A model generated the notes under the pieces. The model was not told the origin of the DNA and searched no databases. It worked only from the letters and a program-made list of their open reading frames with translations. From assembly GCA_947629575.1 (NCBI GenBank), contig CANREF010000001.1, positions 124,001 to 188,000 on the forward strand: a stretch of 64,000 nucleotides of DNA, given 5' to 3'. Source of the DNA: an uncultured Clostridia bacterium (GTDB lineage Bacteria; Bacillota; Clostridia; Christensenellales; Borkfalkiaceae). This document shows positions 8,061-61,600 of this stretch, piece after piece (the first letter of the stretch is position 1; every line of letters starts with the position of its first letter). Both the position numbers and the translations under genes were made by a program.

Positions 8061-8395
8061 GCGCGGACAAAGCGTCCCCGCGAGGATTCCGCCGAGCCTC
8101 TTTTCCACTTGCTGCCCCTTGAGGGGAAGTGGGCGAACGCAGTGAGCCAAAGGGGTTTGCAAGCTCTCGGGGAATTAAAACTGCGCGGTGGGACACCACA
8201 AAGAGGGCTTAAGGCTTCTCCCTTTGTCATTCCGAGCGCAGTCGAGGAATCTCTGCCTCATTATAAAGTAAGATTTCTCCGCTCCACTCGCTGCCCCTTG
8301 AGGGGAAGTGGGCGAACGCAGTGAGCCAAAGGGGTTTGCAAGCTCTCGGGAAAACCCGTCGCTCGACAGGAGGGGTACATTCTTTGATAAAAATA
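8061..8395. repeat. Intergenic mosaic with two 61-bp direct repeats
   Basis: No gene is seen between the ATPase stop and the rpsR terminator. Two 61-base copies, 8111-8171 and 8290-8350, are identical by eye, 179 bases apart. Each carries CCCCTTGAGGGG and AACGCAGTGAGCC, modules seen again at about 61.5 kb. Between them lies a GTCGAGGAATCTC-type module also found at 20.1 and 49.4 kb. Confidence 0.8.
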
Positions 8396-14282: not shown

Positions 14283-14428
14283 GCCTGACTTAACTCTTTG
14301 ATAGCTGCCCCAAGGGGCGATAAGTGGCACGGTGCGTCATGCTGAGCCGAAGTGCAAATACGCAGTCCGTTCACGCTCTCCCCGAAGCATCTTTTTTTCC
14401 GCGAGTTCCTTCCTATAAAAAGCCAATA
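14283..14428. repeat. Repeat fragments between the phosphatase and a small membrane-protein gene
   Basis: No gene. Contains GCGTCATGCTGAGCCG and CTCTCCCCGAAGCATCTT, modules that recur in two copies at 25.4-25.6 kb, and a CCCCAAGGGGCG fold-back. Confidence 0.7.
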
Positions 14429-18163: not shown

Positions 18164-19999
18164 ATGAAGAAAAAGACGAATTTAACTTACATCGGCGGTC
18201 AAGCGGTCATTCAGGGCGTCATGATGCGCGGAAAGACGGGCATGGCGACCGTTGTGCGCAACGACAAAGGCGAGCTGCAAATGGAGGCGAAGCGCATCAC
18301 CCCGCCCGAAAAACGGCGGAAATGGATGCGGTTCGTCTTTATCCGCGGCGTCGTCAATTTCGTCGTATCCCTTGTGGACGGCATGCGCGCCCTTCTGAGG
18401 AGTTCCGAAGCCGCGATCTCCGAAGAGGACGAAGCCCCGCCCAAACTCAACAAATGGGTGGCGGAAAAATGGAAGGTGAGCGTGTCCGACATCGTGACTT
18501 CCGTCTCCACCGTGCTCGGCGTTGCCATCGCGCTCGTGCTCTTCATGTTCCTGCCCTTCTATCTCACCCAACTCATTTCAAACGCTACGGGCGGGGAAGC
18601 GGGCGTGATCGGCGGGAAGGGAAGCCTTTGGTATAATCTTCTCGAAGGCGGATTCCGCATCGTCATCTTTATCCTGTACATCCTGTTCACACTGCTGTTC
18701 AAATCTCTGCGCGAAACATATTGCTATCACGGCGCGGAACATAAGACCATCAACTGCTACGAACACGGGCTTCCGCTCACGGTGGAGAACGTGAAGGGCT
18801 GCTCCCGCCTGCACGACAGGTGCGGTACGACCTTTCTCTTCATCGTCATGTTCATTTCCATTCTCCTGTTTTCGCTCGTGGGCTGGCTCATCGGGCGTCA
18901 TATCGTCACGGGCCTTCCCGCGCTCGATTTCTTCCTCGTATTTCTCATCAAGCTCCTCTGTCTTCCCGTGGTGGCGGGCATCTCCTATGAGGCGTTGCGT
19001 CTTTTGGCGAAGATCCAAAGCCCCGTCGTTCTGCCCCTGAAAGCGCCCGGTTATCTTCTGCAGAAGCTGACGACCCGCGAACCCGATGACGGCATGATCG
19101 AATGCGCCATTCTCGCCTTCAACAAGGTGCTGGATATGGATACCGATCCCGATTCTCCCGAAAAGACCTTCGTCACCGAGACAAAGCTCTCCAAACTGCA
19201 GGAGATGATGAAGAGGCACTTTGCGGAAAAGGACATCGACGAAGCGGACGCGGAGTGGATCTTGAGCCTCACGCTCAACATTCCGCGCAGCGAATTGAAG
19301 TCGGAACGGGTCGTCACCCAAAAGGAGTGCGGGAAGATCCTCGCGCTCTATGAGGAACGGCTCACGGGAAAGCCCCTTTGGTACATCTTCGGGAATACCG
19401 AATTCTACGGCTATCGCATCGCGGTGGACGAGAGGGTGCTCATTCCCCGTCCCGAGACGGAGATCTTGGTGCAGCAGGCGATCGCCGCGATCTCGGAGGG
19501 AGATAAGGTGCTCGATTTGTGCACTGGCAGCGGGGCGATCGCGATCGCCATTGCCTGCGAGGCGGCGAAGGAAAAGAGCATCTCCGTCACGGCGGCGGAC
19601 ATCTCCGAAGACGCACTCGAGGTCGCGCGGGACAATGTGCGCTACAACAAAGCGAACGTAAATCTCGTCAAGAGCGATCTTTTCGAGAACATCCACGGAA
19701 AATTCAACATCATCACGGCAAACCCGCCCTATGTCAAGACGGCGGAGATCGCTCATCTCCAGCGCGAAGTGCGGGACTTCGAGCCCACGATCGCATTGGA
19801 CGGCGGCGAAGACGGTCTGGATTTTTATCGCCGTATCGCGGCAAAGATCAACCGCTATGTCGTCCGTGGGGGGATGCTCATCCTCGAGTGCGGCGAAAAC
19901 CAGGCGCGCGATATCCTCAAGATCTTCTCCCGTTGCGATTACGCAATGGTCGTGAAGGACCTGAGCGGAAAAGAGAGAGTGGTAAAAATTGTGTTTTGA
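18164..19999 (+). CDS. prmC: YqhQ (DUF1385) - PrmC fusion: membrane protein joined to release-factor glutamine methyltransferase
   Basis: A continuous 611-residue frame. Residues about 1-310 are DUF1385/YqhQ: GGQAVIQGVMMRGKTGMATVVRN, several membrane helices, and the conserved YHGAEHKTINCYE and GCSRLHDRCGTTFLF blocks. Residues about 335-611 are a complete PrmC: LSLTLNIPRSEL, GKPLWYIFGNTEFYG, VLIPRPETEILV, LDLCTGSGAIAIAIA (AdoMet), and the catalytic NPPYVK. PrmC methylates Gln of the GGQ motif of release factors; its substrate PrfA is encoded next. In most relatives these are two adjacent genes; here they are one frame with no stop between. No in-frame start with a good RBS is obvious at the junction. 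Confidence 0.92.
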   Translation: MKKKTNLTYIGGQAVIQGVMMRGKTGMATVVRNDKGELQMEAKRITPPEKRRKWMRFVFIRGVVNFVVSLVDGMRALLRSSEAAISEEDEAPPKLNKWVAEKWKVSVSDIVTSVSTVLGVAIALVLFMFLPFYLTQLISNATGGEAGVIGGKGSLWYNLLEGGFRIVIFILYILFTLLFKSLRETYCYHGAEHKTINCYEHGLPLTVENVKGCSRLHDRCGTTFLFIVMFISILLFSLVGWLIGRHIVTGLPALDFFLVFLIKLLCLPVVAGISYEALRLLAKIQSPVVLPLKAPGYLLQKLTTREPDDGMIECAILAFNKVLDMDTDPDSPEKTFVTETKLSKLQEMMKRHFAEKDIDEADAEWILSLTLNIPRSELKSERVVTQKECGKILALYEERLTGKPLWYIFGNTEFYGYRIAVDERVLIPRPETEILVQQAIAAISEGDKVLDLCTGSGAIAIAIACEAAKEKSISVTAADISEDALEVARDNVRYNKANVNLVKSDLFENIHGKFNIITANPPYVKTAEIAHLQREVRDFEPTIALDGGEDGLDFYRRIAAKINRYVVRGGMLILECGENQARDILKIFSRCDYAMVVKDLSGKERVVKIVF

Positions 20000-20001
20000 G
20001 G

Positions 20002-20250
20002 TTTCGCACATTTCTTTTCCCTGTGCTATGCGCCAAACTCTCTAATTGTCATTTCGAGCGGAGCGCGAAGCGCGAAGTCGAGGAATCTCACCATGGAAAA
20101 GAAATGTGCGAGGGGTAAAGTTGTCTGCTTCGTAGCTACTATCTACCCGCCCGATAATCGCTTCGTAAAAACGAAAAGCCGTAAGTGTGCGGCAAATTGT
20201 GTGCGCTTATGGAAAAGTGTGATTTTCCAACGCGCAGTAATTGGGAACGG
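20002..20250 (+). repeat. Post-stop fold-back element, copy 1 (after prmC)
   Basis: Begins two bases after the TGA at 19997-19999. 5' arm TTTCGCACATTTCTTTTC (20002-20019), 3' arm GAAAAGAAATGTGCGA (20096-20111), about 75 bases of cargo between them that contain a CGAAGTCGAGGAATCTC repeat module. Then comes a type 1 tail (GGGGTAAAGTTGTCTGCTTCG and onward, with GCCGTAAGTGTGCGGC) to about 20250. Confidence 0.85.
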
Positions 20251-20490
20251 TTTCGCACATTTCTTTGCTCACTCCCCCCTTGCCCACCCCTTGAGGGGTG
20301 GGTGTCACGCGCAAAGCGCGTGACGGAAGGGGTGTCGCTCTGAAAAGAAATGTGCGAGGGGTAAAGTTGTCTGCTTCGTAGCTACTATCCCCCCGCCCGA
20401 TAACGGCTTCGTAAAAACGGAAAGCCGTAAGTGTGCGGCAAATTGTGTCCCGCAGCGCAAAAGCGTGGTTTTGCTCGCGGAAGAGATTTA
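20251..20490 (+). repeat. Post-stop fold-back element, copy 2 (directly after copy 1)
   Basis: 5' arm TTTCGCACATTTCTTT (20251-20266), 3' arm GAAAAGAAATGTGCGA (20342-20357). The cargo differs from copy 1: it has the nested fold-backs CCACCCCTTGAGGGGTGG and CACGCGC/GCGTG. The type 1 tail follows to about 20490. Confidence 0.85.
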
Positions 20491-20847
20491 AGAAAAACCA
20501 CCTCAGTCACCTACGGTGACAGGTCTCACGCGGTTAGAAACCCGCCTAACTTCGCCCTGCGGGCTCGTGCCGCCTAAGGAATCATGACAGTAGGAATGCG
20601 GGGCGGTCACCGTTCGCGCGGCAAATGCGCTCACTCATCGCAAAACGCAACCCACAGCCCGCGGGGCTGGTGGGTTAGGAATGCGTTTTGCGACCTCCTT
20701 AGGAGGCGCCTTTCTTGCCCCCTCCAAGGAGGGGGGTAGGGGGGTGGTGCATGACGCGTGGTGGGTTGCGCAACCAAGAGCCCGCTCTTGCCTAAGGAGG
20801 CTGGGTGGTGGTGTCCTTTCCCAAGAACCGTAACAACAAAAAACGCA
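20491..20847. repeat. Mosaic repeat spacer before prfA
   Basis: No gene. Contains CACCTCAGTCACCTACGGTGA, CCTCCTTAGGAGGCGCC and CCCCTCCAAGGAGGGG modules that recur at 45.8, 49.9 and 59.5 kb. It separates prfA from the prmC fusion by more than 800 bases. Confidence 0.75.
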
Positions 20848-20850
20848 AAT

Positions 20851-21918
20851 ATGCTTGAAAAAGTAAAAGATATCTACGACAAATATACGGCGCTCACGGA
20901 AAGACTGTCCGACCCGAAAGTCCTTGCGGACATGGAGGAGTGGACCCGCCTTTCCAAGGAGCGCGCGGAGATCGAAGAGGTCGCGCAGAAATATTCCGCC
21001 TGCCTTGCGGCGGAGCGGGAGATGGAAGGCGCGTTTTCGGAGGCGGAAAAAGAGACGGGGGAGATGAAGGAGCTTCTGCTCGAAGAGGGCTATGCCTGCA
21101 AGGAGAAGCTCGCCGCACTCAATGAGGAACTGCGGCTCTTGCTTCTTCCCAAGGACAAGCGGGATGAGCGCGGCTGTACGCTCGAACTCCGCGCAGGTGC
21201 GGGGGGCGAGGAGGCTGCGCTTTTTGCAGCCGTTCTGTATCGGATGTACCGCGGCTATTGCGAAAGCCACCGTCTGAAATGGGAGATCGTCGATCTCAAC
21301 GAAACGGAGCTCGGCGGGATCAAGGAGGCGATCGTCAACATCAGCGGGAAGGGCGCATACGGACGTTTGAAGTACGAGAGCGGCGTTCACCGCGTACAGC
21401 GAGTGCCCGAAACGGAGTCGCAGGGGCGCATCCACACCTCCACGGCGACGGTAGCCGTGCTTCCCGAGGCGGAGGATGTGGAAGTGGAGATCGACGAAAA
21501 GGATATCCGCGTGGATCTGTACCGTTCCTCGGGCGCGGGCGGGCAAAAGGTGAATAAGACGGAAACCGCTATCCGTTTGACCCACTTCCCGACGGGCATC
21601 GTCGTCACCTGTCAGGACGAGCGCAGCCAACTCAAAAACAAAGAAAAGGCATACCGTGTGTTAAAAGCGCGGCTGTATGACTACTATCGGAGCAGGCAGG
21701 ACAACGCCGAGGCGCAGAACAGAAAGAGCCTCGTGGGAACGGGAGACCGCAGCGAACGCATCCGCACCTACAACTTCCCGCAGACCCGCATCACCGACCA
21801 CCGCATCGGGCTCTCCCTGCACAACATGGAGAGCTTCCTCGCGGGGGATATGGACGAGATGATCGACGCGCTTGCCCGTGCCGACAGAGAGGCGCAGCTT
21901 GCGGGGCAGCGCGAATAA
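20851..21918 (+). CDS. prfA: Peptide chain release factor 1
   Basis: A 355-residue RF1. MLEKVKDIYDKYTALTERLSDP opens the N-terminal helical domain; the anticodon-like loop region lies around residue 180-190; the peptidyl-hydrolysis motif is SSGAGGQKVNKTETAIRLTH near residue 230, followed by VTCQDERSQLKNKEKA. It ends translation at UAA and UAG. The Gln of GGQ is the target of PrmC encoded upstream. The start at 20851 matches the family N-terminus, but no AGGAG-like site lies in the 20 bases before it (A-rich AACAACAAAAAACGCAAAT). Co-transcribed with the aminotransferase gene 14 bases downstream. Confidence 0.96.
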   Translation: MLEKVKDIYDKYTALTERLSDPKVLADMEEWTRLSKERAEIEEVAQKYSACLAAEREMEGAFSEAEKETGEMKELLLEEGYACKEKLAALNEELRLLLLPKDKRDERGCTLELRAGAGGEEAALFAAVLYRMYRGYCESHRLKWEIVDLNETELGGIKEAIVNISGKGAYGRLKYESGVHRVQRVPETESQGRIHTSTATVAVLPEAEDVEVEIDEKDIRVDLYRSSGAGGQKVNKTETAIRLTHFPTGIVVTCQDERSQLKNKEKAYRVLKARLYDYYRSRQDNAEAQNRKSLVGTGDRSERIRTYNFPQTRITDHRIGLSLHNMESFLAGDMDEMIDALARADREAQLAGQRE

Positions 21919-25313: not shown

Positions 25314-25800
25314 GCAAGGGCTTAAGGCGCCTCCTCAGGAGGAGCTGTCGAGCGGAGCGAGACTGAGGTGGTATCTCGCTGCCCCGCCCGTCCATGCGTC
25401 ATGCTGAGCCGTGGATTAATTACGCAGTCCGATAAAGCTCTCCCCGAAGCATCTTGGTACGTTTAGGTGTGGTTTTGAAGGGCTTGTCGTAGGTGACTAG
25501 GGTGGTATCTCGCTGCCCCGCCCGTCCATGCGTCATGCTGAGCCGTGGACTAATTACGCAGTCCGATAAAGCTCTCCCCGAAGCATCTTGGTACGTTTAG
25601 GTGTGGTTTTGAACGAACCAGACGTAACAGGATTCCCTCGGAGAATTGCCGCGTCGAACGTTGTAATAACCAATGCGGCTCGGAATGACGCGGGGGTTAC
25701 GCCGAGTGCCCACCCCCTTAGTCCCCCTCCAATGGAGGGGGTGGTGGTTCGCTTGCCCCCTCCGTGGGAGGGGGTGGCACGAGCGAAGCGAGTGACGGGG
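25314..25800. repeat. Repeat mosaic with two 113-bp direct repeats
   Basis: No gene. Copies at 25367-25479 and 25501-25613 differ at about one base by eye and are 134 bases apart. Each holds GCGTCATGCTGAGCCG, ACGCAGTCCGATAAAG and CTCTCCCCGAAGCATCTTGG, the module also seen at 14.3 kb. Downstream are several CCCCTCC/GGAGGGG fold-backs. Confidence 0.8.
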
Positions 25801-25993
25801 GTGGGGCGAGTTCCAAATGCCTTCCGCGAGCAAAACTACGCTTTTGCGCTGCGGGACCCAATTTGGCAATTACTTTTGCCTTATTGTCCGATGAAACGAA
25901 CAAGAGGACAAGCGCGTTAAGGCATCGGGGGAAGGTTTCCTCACGGAAAAAGATTTTGCGCCAGCAAAAGATTTTTCGTGAAATTAAAGTCGT
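25800..25993 (-). repeat. Post-stop fold-back element, copy 8 (minus strand, tail type 2)
   Basis: Reads in the sense of the minus-strand gene that stops at 25998. Arms lie at about 25943-25960 and 25964-25985 (CACGGAAAAAGATTTTGC against GCAAAAGATTTTTCGTG, with a small internal loop). The 3' arm is followed in minus sense by GAGGAAACC and the type 2 tail with TTGTCC/GGACAA and AGTAATTGCCAAATTGGG. Confidence 0.75.
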
Positions 25994-36025: not shown

Positions 36026-39000
36026 ATGAAACGCAAATTTTTGACGGTGTTTTTGGCTGTCATGGCGACGCTTTGCATGGTGTTCGCCCTCTCCGCATGC
36101 GATCTGTTCGGCAGCGGCGGAAAAAGCACGGGAAGCGGCACGGGAAACAACGGCACGCAAACCGAACAGGGCGGCAATACGCAAAAGCCCGACGAGGGCG
36201 GACAGGGCAGCACTGAGCCCGAGAAGAAGGAATTCACCGTGACCTTCAACGCCAACGGCGGCGAGTTTGAGGACGGAAAGAGCGCCTTTTCGGTGTCGGT
36301 GAAGGAGAACGAAACTCTGTCCCTTCCCGAAGAGCCGACGCGCGATAAGTACGAGTTCGTGCAGTGGTGCACGGACAGTTCTTTGGAGACGGCGTGGGAC
36401 TTTTCCACACCCGTGACAAGGGCAATGACCCTCTATGCCGATTGGAAGGCGCTCGTGACCGAGTTCGATGTGACCTTCATTCTCAACTATGAGGGGGCGG
36501 AAAACGTCGTCCGCTCCACGGAGAACGGGCTCGTGACATTTATCCCCGAGCGGGCGGACTATGTGTTCAACGGTTGGTGGCTGAGCGACGGGCTCACCGA
36601 GAGCGGGGAATACATATTATCGCAGAAATGGGACACCGCCGAACCCGTCACCGAGGCGGGCTTGCGGCTCGTGGCGGAATGGGTGGAGAAGGCCACCGTC
36701 TCCATGCAGCTTCCAGCGCCCTCCGTTACGATCAACGAGGCAGTGTTCTCGTGGGAAGCGATCGCGGGGGCGAAGGAGTACGATATCCGCGTCTATAAGG
36801 CGGGCAGTAACACCGAGGAGACCAAGGACCGCACGGACGGCACGACTTGGACCTTCCCGAGCGGTTTCGACGCGGGCTACTACACGGTGAAGATCAGAGC
36901 GCTCGGCGACGGCATGACGACCGTCAACTCGGCATTCGTCTCCAAGAGCTATGGGCACTTGATCTTGAGCAAGATCTCCGAGATCAACTTCGATATTTCC
37001 ACTTCCATTCTCACCTGGACGGCGGTGCGCAAGGCAACTTCCTATGTGCTGTATATCGACAGCGTGGAGACGGAGACCCTCTCCTATACCTCGTTCGATA
37101 TGTCCGCCTACGAGGCGGGGAGCTATTACGTTCAGATCATTGCCAAAAGGGACGGCTACGAATCCTCCACAACGAGCAAAACAGTCGAGAAGAAACGGCT
37201 GAAAACGCCCGAGACGAAGGTGACCTTCGATAACAAGGTCAGCTCTCAATGTACCGTTACATGGGAGCCCGTCGCCCATGCGGACACCTACATCCTTACC
37301 CTCAACGGCGTGGAGCACCGCTTCACGGACGAAACATCCTACACCTTTGACCGCTTCGGCGATTGGGGAGAAGAGCAGATGATCTCCATTACAGTGTCTG
37401 CCTTCGATAGTTATGCGGACTATGCCGTCTCCAATCCCTTTACGGCGGAGACGGAGCAGGTCAACGTCATGGTGAAAGCGACGGAGGGCGGCACTGCTGC
37501 GCTCGAAAACGGCGATGTCTGTGGGAAATTTCCATTCGGAAAAGAGATGTCGGTTGTAGCGACCACCAACATAGGCTACACTTGGGTTGGTTGGTATCGA
37601 GGAAAAGAAGAAGTCACGACTGAGCTTTCTTTCCAATTCACCAAGGAGGAAGAAAATGTTTCTTACGAAGCACGGTGGAGCAAGGTGACCTTGACAGTGA
37701 ACGATTCCTTGGCGGGTAGTGTTACGCAGCTCAACGCCACTTACAAAGTCGGCGATGAAGTGACGCTTACCGCTACGACGAACAAGGGCTATACCTTCAT
37801 CGGTTGGTATCAAGGCGAGCAAGAAGTTTCCACCGAGCTTACTCTCCAATTCACCATGGGGAAAGGGAATGTCGCTTATGAAGCACGGTGGAAAATGGAT
37901 TCGTCTATGAAGAATTTCATATTTACCTCCACTCAAACCAATTGTTCGGTCACGGGTGTAAAAAATCCGAATGCTACACGGCTTACGGTCCCTGATTATG
38001 TCACTTCTATCGCGCAAGGCGCTCTCAAGGACTGCAGCTCTCTTCAAAGCCTCACGATCCCCTTTGTAGGGGAAAGCAGAAAGACGGCAAAGAATACCTA
38101 TCAATATCCATTTGGCTATATTTTCGGAACTTCGAGTTTCTCCGGCACTTCGGCTGTGAAGCAATCCTATTATGGTAATAGCACAAGTAGCACTACTTAC
38201 ACTACCTATTATATCCCCAATTCCTTGAAGAGCGTTACGATAACAGGGGGAGAGATCCTTTATGGGGCGTTCTCTTATTGCGACAGGTTGACGGAAGTTA
38301 CGATCGGGAACGGCGTGACGTCGATTGAGAGTGACGCATTCAGCGGTTGCAGCAGGTTGACATCGATCCGTATTTCCGACAGCATGACCTCGATTGGATA
38401 TGATGCGTTCAGTGGCACTGCTTACTATAACAGCAATGACAACTGGGATAAAGCGGGAGTTCTCTACATCGACCATCATTTGATTGCGGCAAGGAGTACG
38501 ATTGAGGGGAGCTATTCCATTCGTACTAGCGCAAAGACAATAGCAGAAAAAGCATTCTATAATTGCAGTGGGTTGACGGAAATCACGATTCCCGACAGTG
38601 TGACCTCGATCGGAGATTATGCGTTCTATAATTGTAGCAAGTTGAAAAGTGTATCGTTTGGTAATAATAGCAAACTGACCTCGATCGGGGATCGGGCGTT
38701 CGCTTATTGCAGCGGGTTGACGGGAGAATTGAAGATTCCCGACAGCGTGACCTCGATCGGAGATTATGCGTTCTATCATTGCAGCGGGTTGACGGGAGAA
38801 TTGAAGATTCCCGACAGCGTGACCTCGATCGGGGATCGGGCGTTCGCTTATTGCAGCGGGTTGACGGGAGAATTGAAGATTCCCGACATCGTGACCTCGA
38901 TCGGAGATTATGCGTTCTATCATTGCAGCGGGTTGACGGGAGAATTGAAGATTCCCGACAGCGTGACCTCGATCGGAGATTATGCGTTCTGTGATTGCAG

Positions 39001-39685
39001 CGGGTTGACGGAAATCACCATTCCGAGAAGCGTGACCTCAATCGGAAGTAGTGCGTTCTATGGCTGTAGCGAGATCAAAAAAGTTCATATTACCGATCTT
39101 TCTGCATGGTGCAATATTTCATTTGGAAGTGATTCAAATCCGCTTTACTATGCACATCATTTATATATGGACGGGGAGGAGGTCATAAAGTTGGAGATTC
39201 CCAACGGTGTAACCTCGATCGGAGATTATGCGTTCGATGGTTGCAGTGGGTTGACGGAAATCACGATTCCCGACAGTGTGACCAAGATCGGAAATTATGC
39301 GTTCAAGGATTGTATCGGATTGACTTCAATCGACATACCGAACAGTGTGACCTCGATCGGAAGCTGGGCGTTCTATAAGTGCAGCGGGTTGACGAAAATC
39401 ACGATCCCCGACAGCGTGACCTCGATCGGAAGCTGGGCGTTCTGTGATTGCAGCGGGTTGACGGAAATCACGATTCCCGACAGCGTGATCTGGATTGGTG
39501 CGAGTGCGTTCTGTGATTGCAGCGGACTCAAAAAAGTATATTTTGAAAACCCAAACGGGTGGAAGGTAAATTATTATACCGGTCCGTCAAACGTCAAATC
39601 TGTTTCGGGGCTTGAAGATCCTGCGACGGCGGCAGAATATTTGAGAAACACTTATCGCAATTATTATTGGCGTCGGTATAACTAA
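36026..39685 (+). CDS. BspA-like leucine-rich-repeat surface lipoprotein
   Basis: A 1219-residue secreted protein. Residues 1-25 are a lipoprotein signal ending ALSAC. A Gly/Ser/Thr linker leads to InlB/Listeria-Bacteroides repeats (VTFNANGGEFEDG, LYADW), fibronectin-type-III-like segments (about 225-480), more InlB-like repeats (YTWVGWYRGKEEV, YTFIGWYQGEQEV) and, from about 640 to 1170, at least 15 BspA-type LRR_5 repeats (VTSIGDYAFYHCSGL). Such proteins bind host or microbial surfaces. Five repeats between 38.67 and 38.99 kb are nearly identical at the DNA level (72-base unit). AAAAGGAG precedes the ATG. Controlled by the divergent XRE protein, inferred from the operators. Confidence 0.9.
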   Translation: MKRKFLTVFLAVMATLCMVFALSACDLFGSGGKSTGSGTGNNGTQTEQGGNTQKPDEGGQGSTEPEKKEFTVTFNANGGEFEDGKSAFSVSVKENETLSLPEEPTRDKYEFVQWCTDSSLETAWDFSTPVTRAMTLYADWKALVTEFDVTFILNYEGAENVVRSTENGLVTFIPERADYVFNGWWLSDGLTESGEYILSQKWDTAEPVTEAGLRLVAEWVEKATVSMQLPAPSVTINEAVFSWEAIAGAKEYDIRVYKAGSNTEETKDRTDGTTWTFPSGFDAGYYTVKIRALGDGMTTVNSAFVSKSYGHLILSKISEINFDISTSILTWTAVRKATSYVLYIDSVETETLSYTSFDMSAYEAGSYYVQIIAKRDGYESSTTSKTVEKKRLKTPETKVTFDNKVSSQCTVTWEPVAHADTYILTLNGVEHRFTDETSYTFDRFGDWGEEQMISITVSAFDSYADYAVSNPFTAETEQVNVMVKATEGGTAALENGDVCGKFPFGKEMSVVATTNIGYTWVGWYRGKEEVTTELSFQFTKEEENVSYEARWSKVTLTVNDSLAGSVTQLNATYKVGDEVTLTATTNKGYTFIGWYQGEQEVSTELTLQFTMGKGNVAYEARWKMDSSMKNFIFTSTQTNCSVTGVKNPNATRLTVPDYVTSIAQGALKDCSSLQSLTIPFVGESRKTAKNTYQYPFGYIFGTSSFSGTSAVKQSYYGNSTSSTTYTTYYIPNSLKSVTITGGEILYGAFSYCDRLTEVTIGNGVTSIESDAFSGCSRLTSIRISDSMTSIGYDAFSGTAYYNSNDNWDKAGVLYIDHHLIAARSTIEGSYSIRTSAKTIAEKAFYNCSGLTEITIPDSVTSIGDYAFYNCSKLKSVSFGNNSKLTSIGDRAFAYCSGLTGELKIPDSVTSIGDYAFYHCSGLTGELKIPDSVTSIGDRAFAYCSGLTGELKIPDIVTSIGDYAFYHCSGLTGELKIPDSVTSIGDYAFCDCSGLTEITIPRSVTSIGSSAFYGCSEIKKVHITDLSAWCNISFGSDSNPLYYAHHLYMDGEEVIKLEIPNGVTSIGDYAFDGCSGLTEITIPDSVTKIGNYAFKDCIGLTSIDIPNSVTSIGSWAFYKCSGLTKITIPDSVTSIGSWAFCDCSGLTEITIPDSVIWIGASAFCDCSGLKKVYFENPNGWKVNYYTGPSNVKSVSGLEDPATAAEYLRNTYRNYYWRRYN
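38678..38995 (+). repeat. Near-identical 72-bp tandem repeats inside the LRR gene
   Basis: About four and a half units of 24 codons encode alternating GDRAFAYCSGLTGELKIPDS and GDYAFYHCSGLTGELKIPDS. They differ at few bases, unlike the flanking 69-base repeats, so they look recently amplified. Confidence 0.85.
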
Positions 39686-45577: not shown

Positions 45578-45815
45578 TTTCGCACATTTCTTTGCTCACT
45601 TCCATCCCTTGCCCACCCCTTGAGGGGTGGGTGTCACGCGCAGAGCGCGTGACGGAAGGGGTGTCGTTCGAAAAGAAATGTGCGAGGGGTTAGGTTGTTT
45701 GCTTCGTAGCTACCATCTACCCGCCCGATAATCGCTTCGTAAAAACGGAAAGCCGTAAGAGTGCGGCAAATTGTGTCCCGCAGCGCAAAATGGCGATTTT
45801 GCTCGCGGAGTGATT
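45578..45815 (+). repeat. Post-stop fold-back element, copy 3 (after smc)
   Basis: Begins four bases after the smc TGA. 5' arm TTTCGCACATTTCTTT (45578-45593), 3' arm GAAAAGAAATGTGCGA (45670-45685). The cargo matches copy 2 (CCACCCCTTGAGGGGTGG and CGTGACGG). Type 1 tail to about 45815. Confidence 0.85.
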
Positions 45816-49317: not shown

Positions 49318-49577
49318 TTTCGCACATTTCTTTGCTCACTCCACCCCGTCCACCGACACGTCATCCCGAGCGTAGCGAAGCGAAGTCGAGGGATCTCGTT
49401 CTAAGAGCAAACTGCGGGGTGTCGTTCGAAAAGAAATGTGCGAGGGGTTAAGTTGTCTGCTCCGCACTCACTATCTGCCCGCCCGATAACTGCTTCGTAA
49501 AAACGAAAAGCCGTAAGAATGCGGCAAATTGAGTGCGCTGCCGCAGGGAAACCCTGCTCCGCGCAGTAATGCGAATG
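49318..49577 (+). repeat. Post-stop fold-back element, copy 4 (after ffh)
   Basis: Begins three bases after the ffh TGA. 5' arm TTTCGCACATTTCTTT (49318-49333), 3' arm GAAAAGAAATGTGCGA (49428-49443). The cargo holds CGTCATCCCGAGCGTAGCG and GTCGAGGGATCTCG. Type 1 tail to about 49577, ending in a CCGCAGGGAAACCCTGC hairpin. Confidence 0.87.
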
Positions 49578-49578
49578 G

Positions 49579-49830
49579 TTTCGCACATTTCTTTGCTCAC
49601 TCCACCCCGTCCACCGACACGTCATCCCGAGCGTAGCGAAGCGAAGTCGAGGGATCTCGTTCTAAGAGCAAACTGCGGGGTGTCGTTTCGAAAAGAAATG
49701 TGCGAGGGGTTAAGTGATTTGCTTCGTAAAAGCAATCTACCCGCCCGATAACGGCTTCGTAAAAACGGAAAGCGCGAGGTGTCGCGCAAATTGTGTCTCG
49801 CAGCGCAAAAGCGTGGTTTTGCTCGCGGAA
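49579..49830 (+). repeat. Post-stop fold-back element, copy 5 (tandem to copy 4)
   Basis: 5' arm TTTCGCACATTTCTTT (49579-49594), 3' arm GAAAAGAAATGTGCGA (49690-49705). Cargo almost identical to copy 4, so the pair looks like a tandem duplication of about 260 bases. The tail diverges after its first 25 bases and ends GCTCGCGGAAGG. Confidence 0.87.
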
Positions 49831-50331: not shown

Positions 50332-50336
50332 TTAAG

Positions 50337-50500
50337 TTCACAAATTTTTCCTGACGGAAAAATTTCGTGAGGAAACTTGCTTTGCTGCCTTAACCTACTT
50401 GTCCTCTCGTTCGTTTCAAAGGACAATAAGGCAAAAGTAATTGCCAAATTGGGTCGCCTACGGCGGAAGTGAATTCCGCCTAAGGCACATAATTGGGAAT
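50337..50500 (+). repeat. Post-stop fold-back element, copy 6 (after rpsP, tail type 2)
   Basis: Begins five bases after the rpsP TAA. 5' arm TTCACAAATTTTTCC (50337-50351), 3' arm GGAAAAATTTCGTGA (50356-50370), one bulged base. Tail type 2 follows: GGAAACTTGC, TTGTCC/GGACAA and AAGTAATTGCCAAATTGGG. Confidence 0.82.
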
Positions 50501-50503
50501 AGT

Positions 50504-50665
50504 CCACAAATTTTGTCGTTCCGACAAAATTTCGTGAGGGGGTTAAGTTGTCTGCTTCGTAGCTGCAATCTGCCCGCCCGATAGCTGCTTCGTAAAAACA
50601 AAAAGCCGCAGGTGTGCGGCAAATTGTGTGCGCTGCCGCAGGGAAACCCTGCTTCGCGCAGTGAT
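50504..50665 (+). repeat. Post-stop fold-back element, copy 7 (tail type 1)
   Basis: Stem CCACAAATTTTGTCG (50504-50518) and CGACAAAATTTCGTG (50522-50536) with almost no cargo. Type 1 tail from GGTTAAGTTGTCTGCTTCG to a CCGCAGGGAAACCCTGC hairpin. Shows a short hairpin can replace the long fold-back before the same tail. Confidence 0.82.
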
Positions 50666-59650: not shown

Positions 59651-59885
59651 CTCCCAATTATGTGCCTTAGGCGGAATTGACTTCCGCCGTGGGCGACACA
59701 ATTTGGCAATTACTTTTGCCTTGTTGTCCAAGCCGAGCGAATGAGAGGAATATCCTGTTGATGTAGGGGGAAGGTTTCCTCGCGGCGTTAATTTTCGACT
59801 GACACCCCTTCCGTCACGCGCTTTGCGCGCGACACCCACCCCTCAAGGGGTGGGCAAGGGGGCAAGGCGAAAAGAAATGCCGCGA
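59650..59885 (-). repeat. Post-stop fold-back element, copy 9 (minus strand, tail type 2)
   Basis: Reads in the sense of the gene that stops at 59887. Arms: TCGCGGCGTTAATTTTCG (59780-59797) and CGAAAAGAAATGCCGCGA (59868-59885), central mismatches. The cargo is the CCACCCCTCAAGGGGTGG and GCGTGACGG module of copies 2 and 3. In minus sense the 3' arm is followed by GGAAACCTTCCCC and the type 2 tail. Confidence 0.8.
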
Positions 59886-61256: not shown

Positions 61257-61600
61257 GGCCGCAGATATGCGGCGCGATCCATTGTCGCGCTACGTTTTTC
61301 TCGGTCACGTACCGCAAAAGTACGCTCCCTTCAAAAAGCCTCGCGCTCCTCGGCTTGCTTGCATCTTTGCGGTCTTGACGAGCTGACAGCCGCAGATATG
61401 CGGCGCGATCCATTGTCGCGCTACGTTTTTCTCGGTCAGAGATTTCTCCACTCGCTTCGCTCGGTCGAAATGACAATGAGTGGCTGAGGTGGTATTCTTG
61501 CCGTCTCCGCGAAGCGGGGGAAAGTGGCGAACGCAGTGAGCTCCGCAAAAGGAAAGTGCTTCGCTATGCGAAAGTCGTAACTTCTAAAAAAATTTTGTGA
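61257..61600. repeat. Repeats between grpE and dnaK, with grpE 3'-end relic
   Basis: No gene. A 50-base unit beginning GCCGCAGATATGCGGCGCG is at 61258-61307 and 61389-61438, 131 bases apart; its first 16 bases form a hairpin. Positions 61550-61578 match the grpE coding end at 61215-61243 in 26 of 29 bases. A CTCGCTTCGCTCGG module and AACGCAGTGAGC (also at 8.1 kb) lie between. Confidence 0.82.

Follow-up and report, generated by a model that had tools for sequence, protein, structure and literature searches.

When the two arms of a hairpin change together from one copy to the next, is a fold being kept by selection, and if so, is it a fold of RNA or of DNA? The question arises at positions 20002-20111 of the window, by which we mean the whole stretch of DNA analysed—a 64-kb piece of the 1.87-Mb draft genome (94% complete) of an uncultured Clostridia bacterium. 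The hairpin found there is one of nine copies in the window, seven on the plus strand and two on the minus strand, and a first-pass annotation took their matched stem changes for the mark of a selected RNA or hairpin-DNA structure rather than of passive decay. Our analysis points to a mobile, mostly sense-oriented structured repeat that is probably selected as RNA.

Architecture of the repeat and its copies in the window

One unit of the repeat is ~160–250 nt long and comprises, in this order, a hairpin H1, a middle part (~55–75 nt in every window copy) and two further hairpins, H3 and H4. A covariance model of H3 + H4, here called R1, gave 155 matches, of which 150 were aligned and 130 remained as distinct rows. 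H3 consists of six pairs and a loop that has four bases in most sequences and reads RGNR in most, and AAATTGNG lies between H3 and H4 in most units. H4 is built of 4–5 outer pairs, an asymmetric internal loop (3–4 nt by 2–3 nt), six inner pairs and a terminal loop, the last reading GCGTGG in 77 of the 130 rows. The 5' edge of the unit is sharp, with a T preceding H1 in 66/66 rows, and the 3' edge is diffuse; within the middle segment, a full 6-bp complement was found in 22/145 cases against 9.1 with shuffled arms, taking the better of two offsets. Compared with shuffled sequences, a short copy (50336-50490) folded with a z score of -5.61 and copy 1 (20002-20238) with one of -3.97. At five loci elsewhere (L047, L065, L060, L097, and L003 at its positions 1938-1998), the R1 match carries AAATG..GTC after H3 in place of AAATTGNG; in such variants the bases 5' of H3 are sometimes able to pair (GACAA/TTGTC), a hint of an extra helix around H3.

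The span 20002-20111 corresponds to a single H1, and the element to which it belongs, copy 1, extends on to ~20238. This H1 (20004-20111, plus strand) has arms at ~20004-20019 and ~20096-20111 around a loop of ~70 nt that contains another palindromic repeat, and it begins 4 nt past the stop codon (19997-19999) of a prmC-like upstream gene; a middle segment (20112-20175) separates it from H3 + H4 at 20176-20237 (R1 match, 49.5 bits). The frame ending there (18164-19999, 611 aa) presumably joins a membrane protein to a PrmC-like methylase in an apparent fusion, putative names suggested in part by position. Copy 2 follows in tandem, with H1 at 20253-20357, a different repeat in its loop, and H3 + H4 at 20422-20482 (90.7 bits). 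Farther along the plus strand, copy 3 has its H1 at 45580-45685, 6 nt past a stop codon, and H3 + H4 at 45750-45810 (78 bits). Copy 4 (H1 49320-49443; H3 + H4 49508-49566, 36.9 bits) begins 5 nt past the stop codon of a gene that we take to be ffh-like from its position beside rpsP alone, and has copy 5 in tandem (H1 49581-49705; H3 + H4 49770-49830, 86.8 bits). Behind the rpsP-like gene, 6 nt past its stop codon, stands copy 6, with a short H1 at 50338-50370 (CACAAATTTTTCC / GGAAAAATTTCGTG) and H3 + H4 with variant stems at 50428-50488 (29.2 bits); copy 7, in tandem with it, has a short H1 at 50504-50537 and H3 + H4 at 50603-50661 (43.3 bits). The remaining two copies lie on the minus strand, their coordinates converted from minus-strand numbering: copy 8, with an H1 of the CACGAAAAATC type at 25941-25981, 16 nt past a minus-strand stop codon, and H3 + H4 at 25822-25882 (72.5 bits), and copy 9, with an H1 ending in TCGCGGC / GCCGCGA at 59780-59885, 1 nt past a minus-strand stop codon, and H3 + H4 at 59662-59722 (25.7 bits).

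Several H1 loops hold palindromic repeats of their own, TGTCATTTCGAGC...GTCGAGGAATCTC and CCACCCCTTGAGGGGTGGGTGTCACGCG..., which appear to be nested in them (window 20050-20092, 20277-20345, 45606-45674 and 59792-59860), and comparable repeats fill H1 loops of other species as well (L124, L130). For 21 elements that lacked a good short H1, the second arm was sought up to 2.5 kb away or as far as the locus reached (1.5 kb in most). Judged by arm distance, none of these 21 showed the gene-sized insert in H1 that an autonomous copy would have; some turned out to have an ordinary short H1, ten had no second arm, and in L093 the arms are 334 nt apart. The window also carries repeats of other kinds: a repeat of 119 nt present twice in tandem (25361-25613) with a relative 11 kb off at 14333-14393 (TGCGTCATGCTGAGCC...CCCCGAAGCATCTT); intergenic repeats in nearby pairs at 8104-8353 (71 nt, 97% alike) and 61258-61438 (50 nt, identical); and an ORF of 1219 aa (36026-39685) that may encode a repeat-rich surface protein, its internal repeats recurring at spacings of 69 and 72 nt.

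Stems covary while loops keep their sequence

The variety of stems reported for the window is real: one stem, TTTCGCACATTTCTTT with its complement, is common to five copies, the remaining four differ as described in the first-pass annotation, and pairing is kept in all. The associated rule, that the 3' arm always ends in GYGA followed by GG, holds for all nine window copies (GCGAGG or GTGAGG) but is not absolute elsewhere—one copy in the same genome (L024) ends in GCGAAG, and several copies in relatives differ. Across the wider set, at least 12 of 15 upstream positions matched the H1 3' arm in 125/134 cases, against 7/134 when the inner arm was shuffled. A few founder insertions cannot account for the stems: 127 elements carry 67 distinct H1 stems, and compensated changes have arisen inside one lineage, where L006 reads TCGAACATTTC/GAAATGTTCGA and near-identical relatives read TCGCACATTTC/GAAATGTGCGA.

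H3 and H4, which had not been treated before, behave in the same manner. In a set of 19 sequences, 98.1% of cells were paired and 7/17 pairs had changed on both sides; the covariation score was reached by 0/500 shuffles and the count of pairs by 56/500. With all 130 distinct rows, 97.6% of cells were paired, both-side changes occurred at 16/17 pairs, and there were 316 double-change cells against 71.6 in shuffles, whereas sliding the partner by 1–3 columns left pairing at only 35–63%. As aligned, H3 shows 28 distinct stems and H4 15 inner stems, a few rows being badly aligned in each.

Shared ancestry was taken into account with an R-scape-like test, in which substitutions were reconstructed on a FastTree tree by the Fitch method, scattered randomly on the same branches and compared by a G-test with APC. 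At E<0.05, with E-values taken from 40 simulations and an extrapolated tail, 17 column pairs stood out, of which two were not stem pairs. The other 15 comprise six pairs in H3/H4, which were not picked for pairing, though the alignment behind them had been fitted to the H3/H4 structure, and nine in H1, a number biased upward since the H1 5' arm was picked by complementarity. Fourteen of the 29 stem pairs were not significant, some of them from scarce variation. Covariation above background is thus strong, as the first-pass annotation had anticipated for H1. Taken together, the covariation, the many H1 stems and the compensation within one lineage exclude passive decay, and that part of the earlier claim stands.

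Paired changes could also arise without selection on the fold if replication, by template switching, copied one arm onto the other. Such mutation is a published route by which RNA hairpins are made and kept (PMC8794818), and the H1 arms are long and almost perfect, as it would have them. Copying would be expected to act on the internal loop of H4 as well, however, and this loop stays non-complementary in 129/130 rows (three with an empty side). Nor is any H3 or H4 loop in the 130 rows the reverse complement of a commoner loop, loops retain their sequence while the surrounding stems change, and covariation is no weaker in short stems, the 6-bp H3 for one, than in H1. The non-complementary internal loop, the lack of inverted loops and the kept loop sequence disfavour template switching as the main cause, a role in which we regard it as unlikely, although it may contribute to H1. 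Selection on the folded form is the simpler reading.

Units stand close behind stop codons, mostly in the sense orientation

The analysis of gene context covered 152 distinct rows, of which 133 have an H1. An analysis of neighbours from plain ORFs proved meaningless because of antisense ORFs in GC-rich DNA and was replaced by a codon-usage gene finder, written for the analysis and trained on the window, which was applied at 106 sites and misplaces some genes (L052, for example, lies 5 nt after the end of an open frame yet was scored antisense). Cases in which a sense gene ended no more than 60 nt upstream provided 62 distinct H1 starts; of these, 57 lay 1–9 nt past the stop codon of that gene, with all three stop codons in use. 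The same was true of 8/10 H1 starts in convergent spacers, which have no ribosome or start site downstream to limit the position. At 44/106 sites there was no first unit 0–25 nt past a recognized sense stop, partly owing to the home-made gene finder. Co-directional spacers held 58 sense and 15 antisense sites (binomial p 4e-7, with sites in related species not fully independent).

At 35/106 sites the units form arrays of 2–5, arranged head to tail with later units behind the first. One spacer of a relative (L081, 1501-2221) holds a five-unit array in which H4 inner stems GAAGAA/TTCTTC and GCAAAAT/ATTTTGC alternate. In L066 (1494-1926, minus strand) a unit immediately follows not a stop codon but the gene for a large SRP RNA (Rfam match 1662-1926).

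Hairpins directly past stop codons could be intrinsic transcription terminators. We consider this very improbable: in the sequence of the copy 1 region a T tract is absent after both H1 and H4, a terminator scan of 19900-20900 gave two sites, both outside H1–H4, against 1.5 expected by chance, and many units sit between co-directional genes.

The sense orientation and the tight link to the stop codon favour RNA over DNA as the folded molecule. Folding energy does not separate the strands, which fold about equally (z -5.61 against -6.13 for the copy at 50336-50490). Counts of G-T against A-C pairs, expected to reveal which strand is transcribed, are mixed: in H3/H4, G-T pairs outnumber A-C pairs by 37 to 4, yet 28 of the 37 fall at one pair, and in H1 the count is 7 to 23, confounded by a bulge that can be placed in two ways.

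Distribution and patchy occupancy of sites

Of 101 genomes from the window's genus, 88 contain the element according to R1 and the other 13 have none at the cut-off used; copy number ranges from 0 to more than 50, with up to 52 R1 matches per genome when no more than 53 candidates were put through scoring. An order-wide sample of 200 genomes, 13 of them from the same family, yielded it in 10—six of the window's genus and four of one other genus in that family. A DNA search with the 137-base tail recovered the element in 21/41 genomes, all of the same genus, and in 0/16 from other families. A degenerate H3 pattern gave five matches in named genome contigs, in unrelated organisms and near the estimated chance number, and no match was found in viral contigs, phages and plasmids, collections that may omit genomes close to the window's. 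Rfam at the gathering score returned only tRNA over the whole window; at E up to 5 over twelve loci it gave no family for the unit, with one match above the gathering score (SRP RNA) and 11 below. We found no description of the element in the open-access literature on repeats and structured RNAs, where an existing one may have been missed; 250 palindromic candidates are reported in a human-microbiome survey of structured RNAs (PMC8040213).

Equivalent spacers in related species, compared by eye, were patchily filled. Behind rpsP, whole elements were present in 7 of 30 species, with H1 starting within ~10 bases of the rpsP stop, and partial ones in 2 (L135, L149). The other 21 loci have no whole or clear partial element, although a short stretch in L133 resembles H4; in 19 of them khpA lies 14–173 nt away, L146 has 722 nt of other sequence, and L144 falls outside the count. 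Behind prmC, 4 of 30 loci were filled (the window's own, L160, L161 and L162), 3–6 nt past the stop, and in most unfilled ones prfA starts a few to some tens of bases on, where automatically measured distances are unreliable. These patchily filled spacers indicate that the element is gained and lost at the same positions.

Such occupancy also speaks against a fixed host function. Were the repeat a conserved RNA serving the host—a 3' UTR regulator or non-coding RNA, say, whose copies are retained because they influence certain genes—its genus-wide structure and loop sequence and its sense orientation at gene ends would be expected. It would be harder to understand why a whole unit stands at the same gene in only 7/30 (rpsP) or 4/30 (prmC) species, or why copy number varies as widely as it does, down to the 13/101 genomes without a unit; we hold this explanation to be distinctly unlikely.

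Searches for a mobilizer

Proteins that might move the element were sought in 24 draft genomes, 12 with high and 12 with low or zero copy number. Y1 transposases (Y1_Tnp) were found in 7/24, namely 3/12 high-copy and 4/12 low- or zero-copy genomes, and reverse transcriptases (RVT_1) in 5/24 (3/12 and 2/12); neither tracked copy number. TnpB-like proteins (PF07282) exceeded the cut-off in 0/24. The window's own genome yielded no Y1 transposase, reverse transcriptase or TnpB-like protein, although in draft genomes absence is not proof. A group II intron or retron was rejected on the lack of a reverse transcriptase in the window's genome and its presence in only 3/12 high-copy genomes, and an IS200/IS605 element or TnpB omega-RNA on the 0/24 result for PF07282.

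A Y1 (RAYT-like) transposase is the enzyme expected if the repeat were a DNA element of the REP/BIME type, in which the transposase recognizes single-stranded DNA hairpins and gene ends merely tolerate insertion. High copy number, hairpins and an intergenic position 3' of genes all agree with published descriptions of REPs (PMC3733652, PMC12306157), and some genomes of the genus do have Y1 transposases. Their absence from 9/12 high-copy genomes, the window's own included, and presence in 4/12 low- or zero-copy ones make this origin improbable.

A proposed explanation

On balance, we favour the reading that the units are non-autonomous, proliferating structured repeats, confined in the searched sample to one bacterial family, in which a folded RNA is recognized by selection or by mobilizing machinery. 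Transcription would run from the preceding gene into the unit. With H1 only 1–9 nt from the stop, the most likely consequence is that the hairpin would fall within the footprint of the terminating ribosome. There it may slow termination or shape mRNA stability, in parallel to E. coli, where REPs no more than 15 nt from a stop codon are reported to stall ribosomes (PMC12306157). The element might persist by landing where it does least harm, perhaps tuning the preceding gene, and the fold would be required either for that tuning or for the element's own copying. What keeps the fold could be the selfish spread of folded copies, an action in mRNA or, in part, template-switch mutation.

A bolder version, which we regard as possible but rather doubtful, is that the repeat represents a new mobile class that transposes by way of its own folded transcript, or by an intermediate dependent on the termination of translation next to it. 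Such an element would land in the sense orientation a few bases from stop codons in hosts that lack any known transposase, reverse transcriptase or TnpB, and its stems could vary freely provided that pairing was preserved. If the stop-codon link reflects the mode of insertion and not tolerance, it would amount to a new route of mobility. The copies, numbering up to dozens in a single genome and spread over 88 genomes, with stems changing while pairing is kept, form a natural set in which selection on structure can be separated from template-switch mutation, and which allows a direct test of whether stop-adjacent hairpins alter translation or mRNA decay.

Comparison with known repeats

REP/BIME sequences of E. 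coli, Pseudomonas and others are, like the present repeat, high-copy palindromic repeats at gene ends, and REP subfamilies with alternative complementary stem bases have been described (PMC3733652). The two differ in size, with 20–40 nt for a REP against ~160–250 nt and at least three hairpins here, and in their link to a Y1 (RAYT) transposase, a protein missing from most high-copy genomes of the present repeat. Foot and arrangement also count against the REP/BIME reading: in place of GTAG/CGTC, the H1 foot reads GYGAGG in the nine window copies, and units stand head to tail in mostly sense arrays, whereas many REP families are described as paired in opposite orientation (PMC3733652). Stop codons are approached more closely as well. 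First units behind a sense gene lie within 9 nt of the stop in 57/62 cases, whereas PMC12306157 gives 446 of 4,072 E. coli REPs within 15 nt (and 260/496 for an earlier study cited there).

BOX elements of Streptococcus pneumoniae share the modular build with tandem parts, and are predicted to fold as RNA and likely co-transcribed in the description available (PMC3049150). By that description, and not by sequence, they are set apart in repeating one module internally, whereas the present repeat duplicates whole units; stop-codon adjacency and compensated stems, both seen here, are absent from the portion of the BOX description compared (PMC3049150). ERIC, Correia/NEMIS and other small MITE-like repeats, ~100–200 nt long, are likewise non-autonomous and structured, and ERIC is reported to affect mRNA in one orientation (PMC2229807). 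In the present repeat, by contrast, no terminal inverted repeat was seen across the whole unit, and stems differ from copy to copy. By the tests made, the repeat is not a member of the REP family, and it appears to be broadly the same kind of thing as REP, BOX, ERIC and NEMIS.
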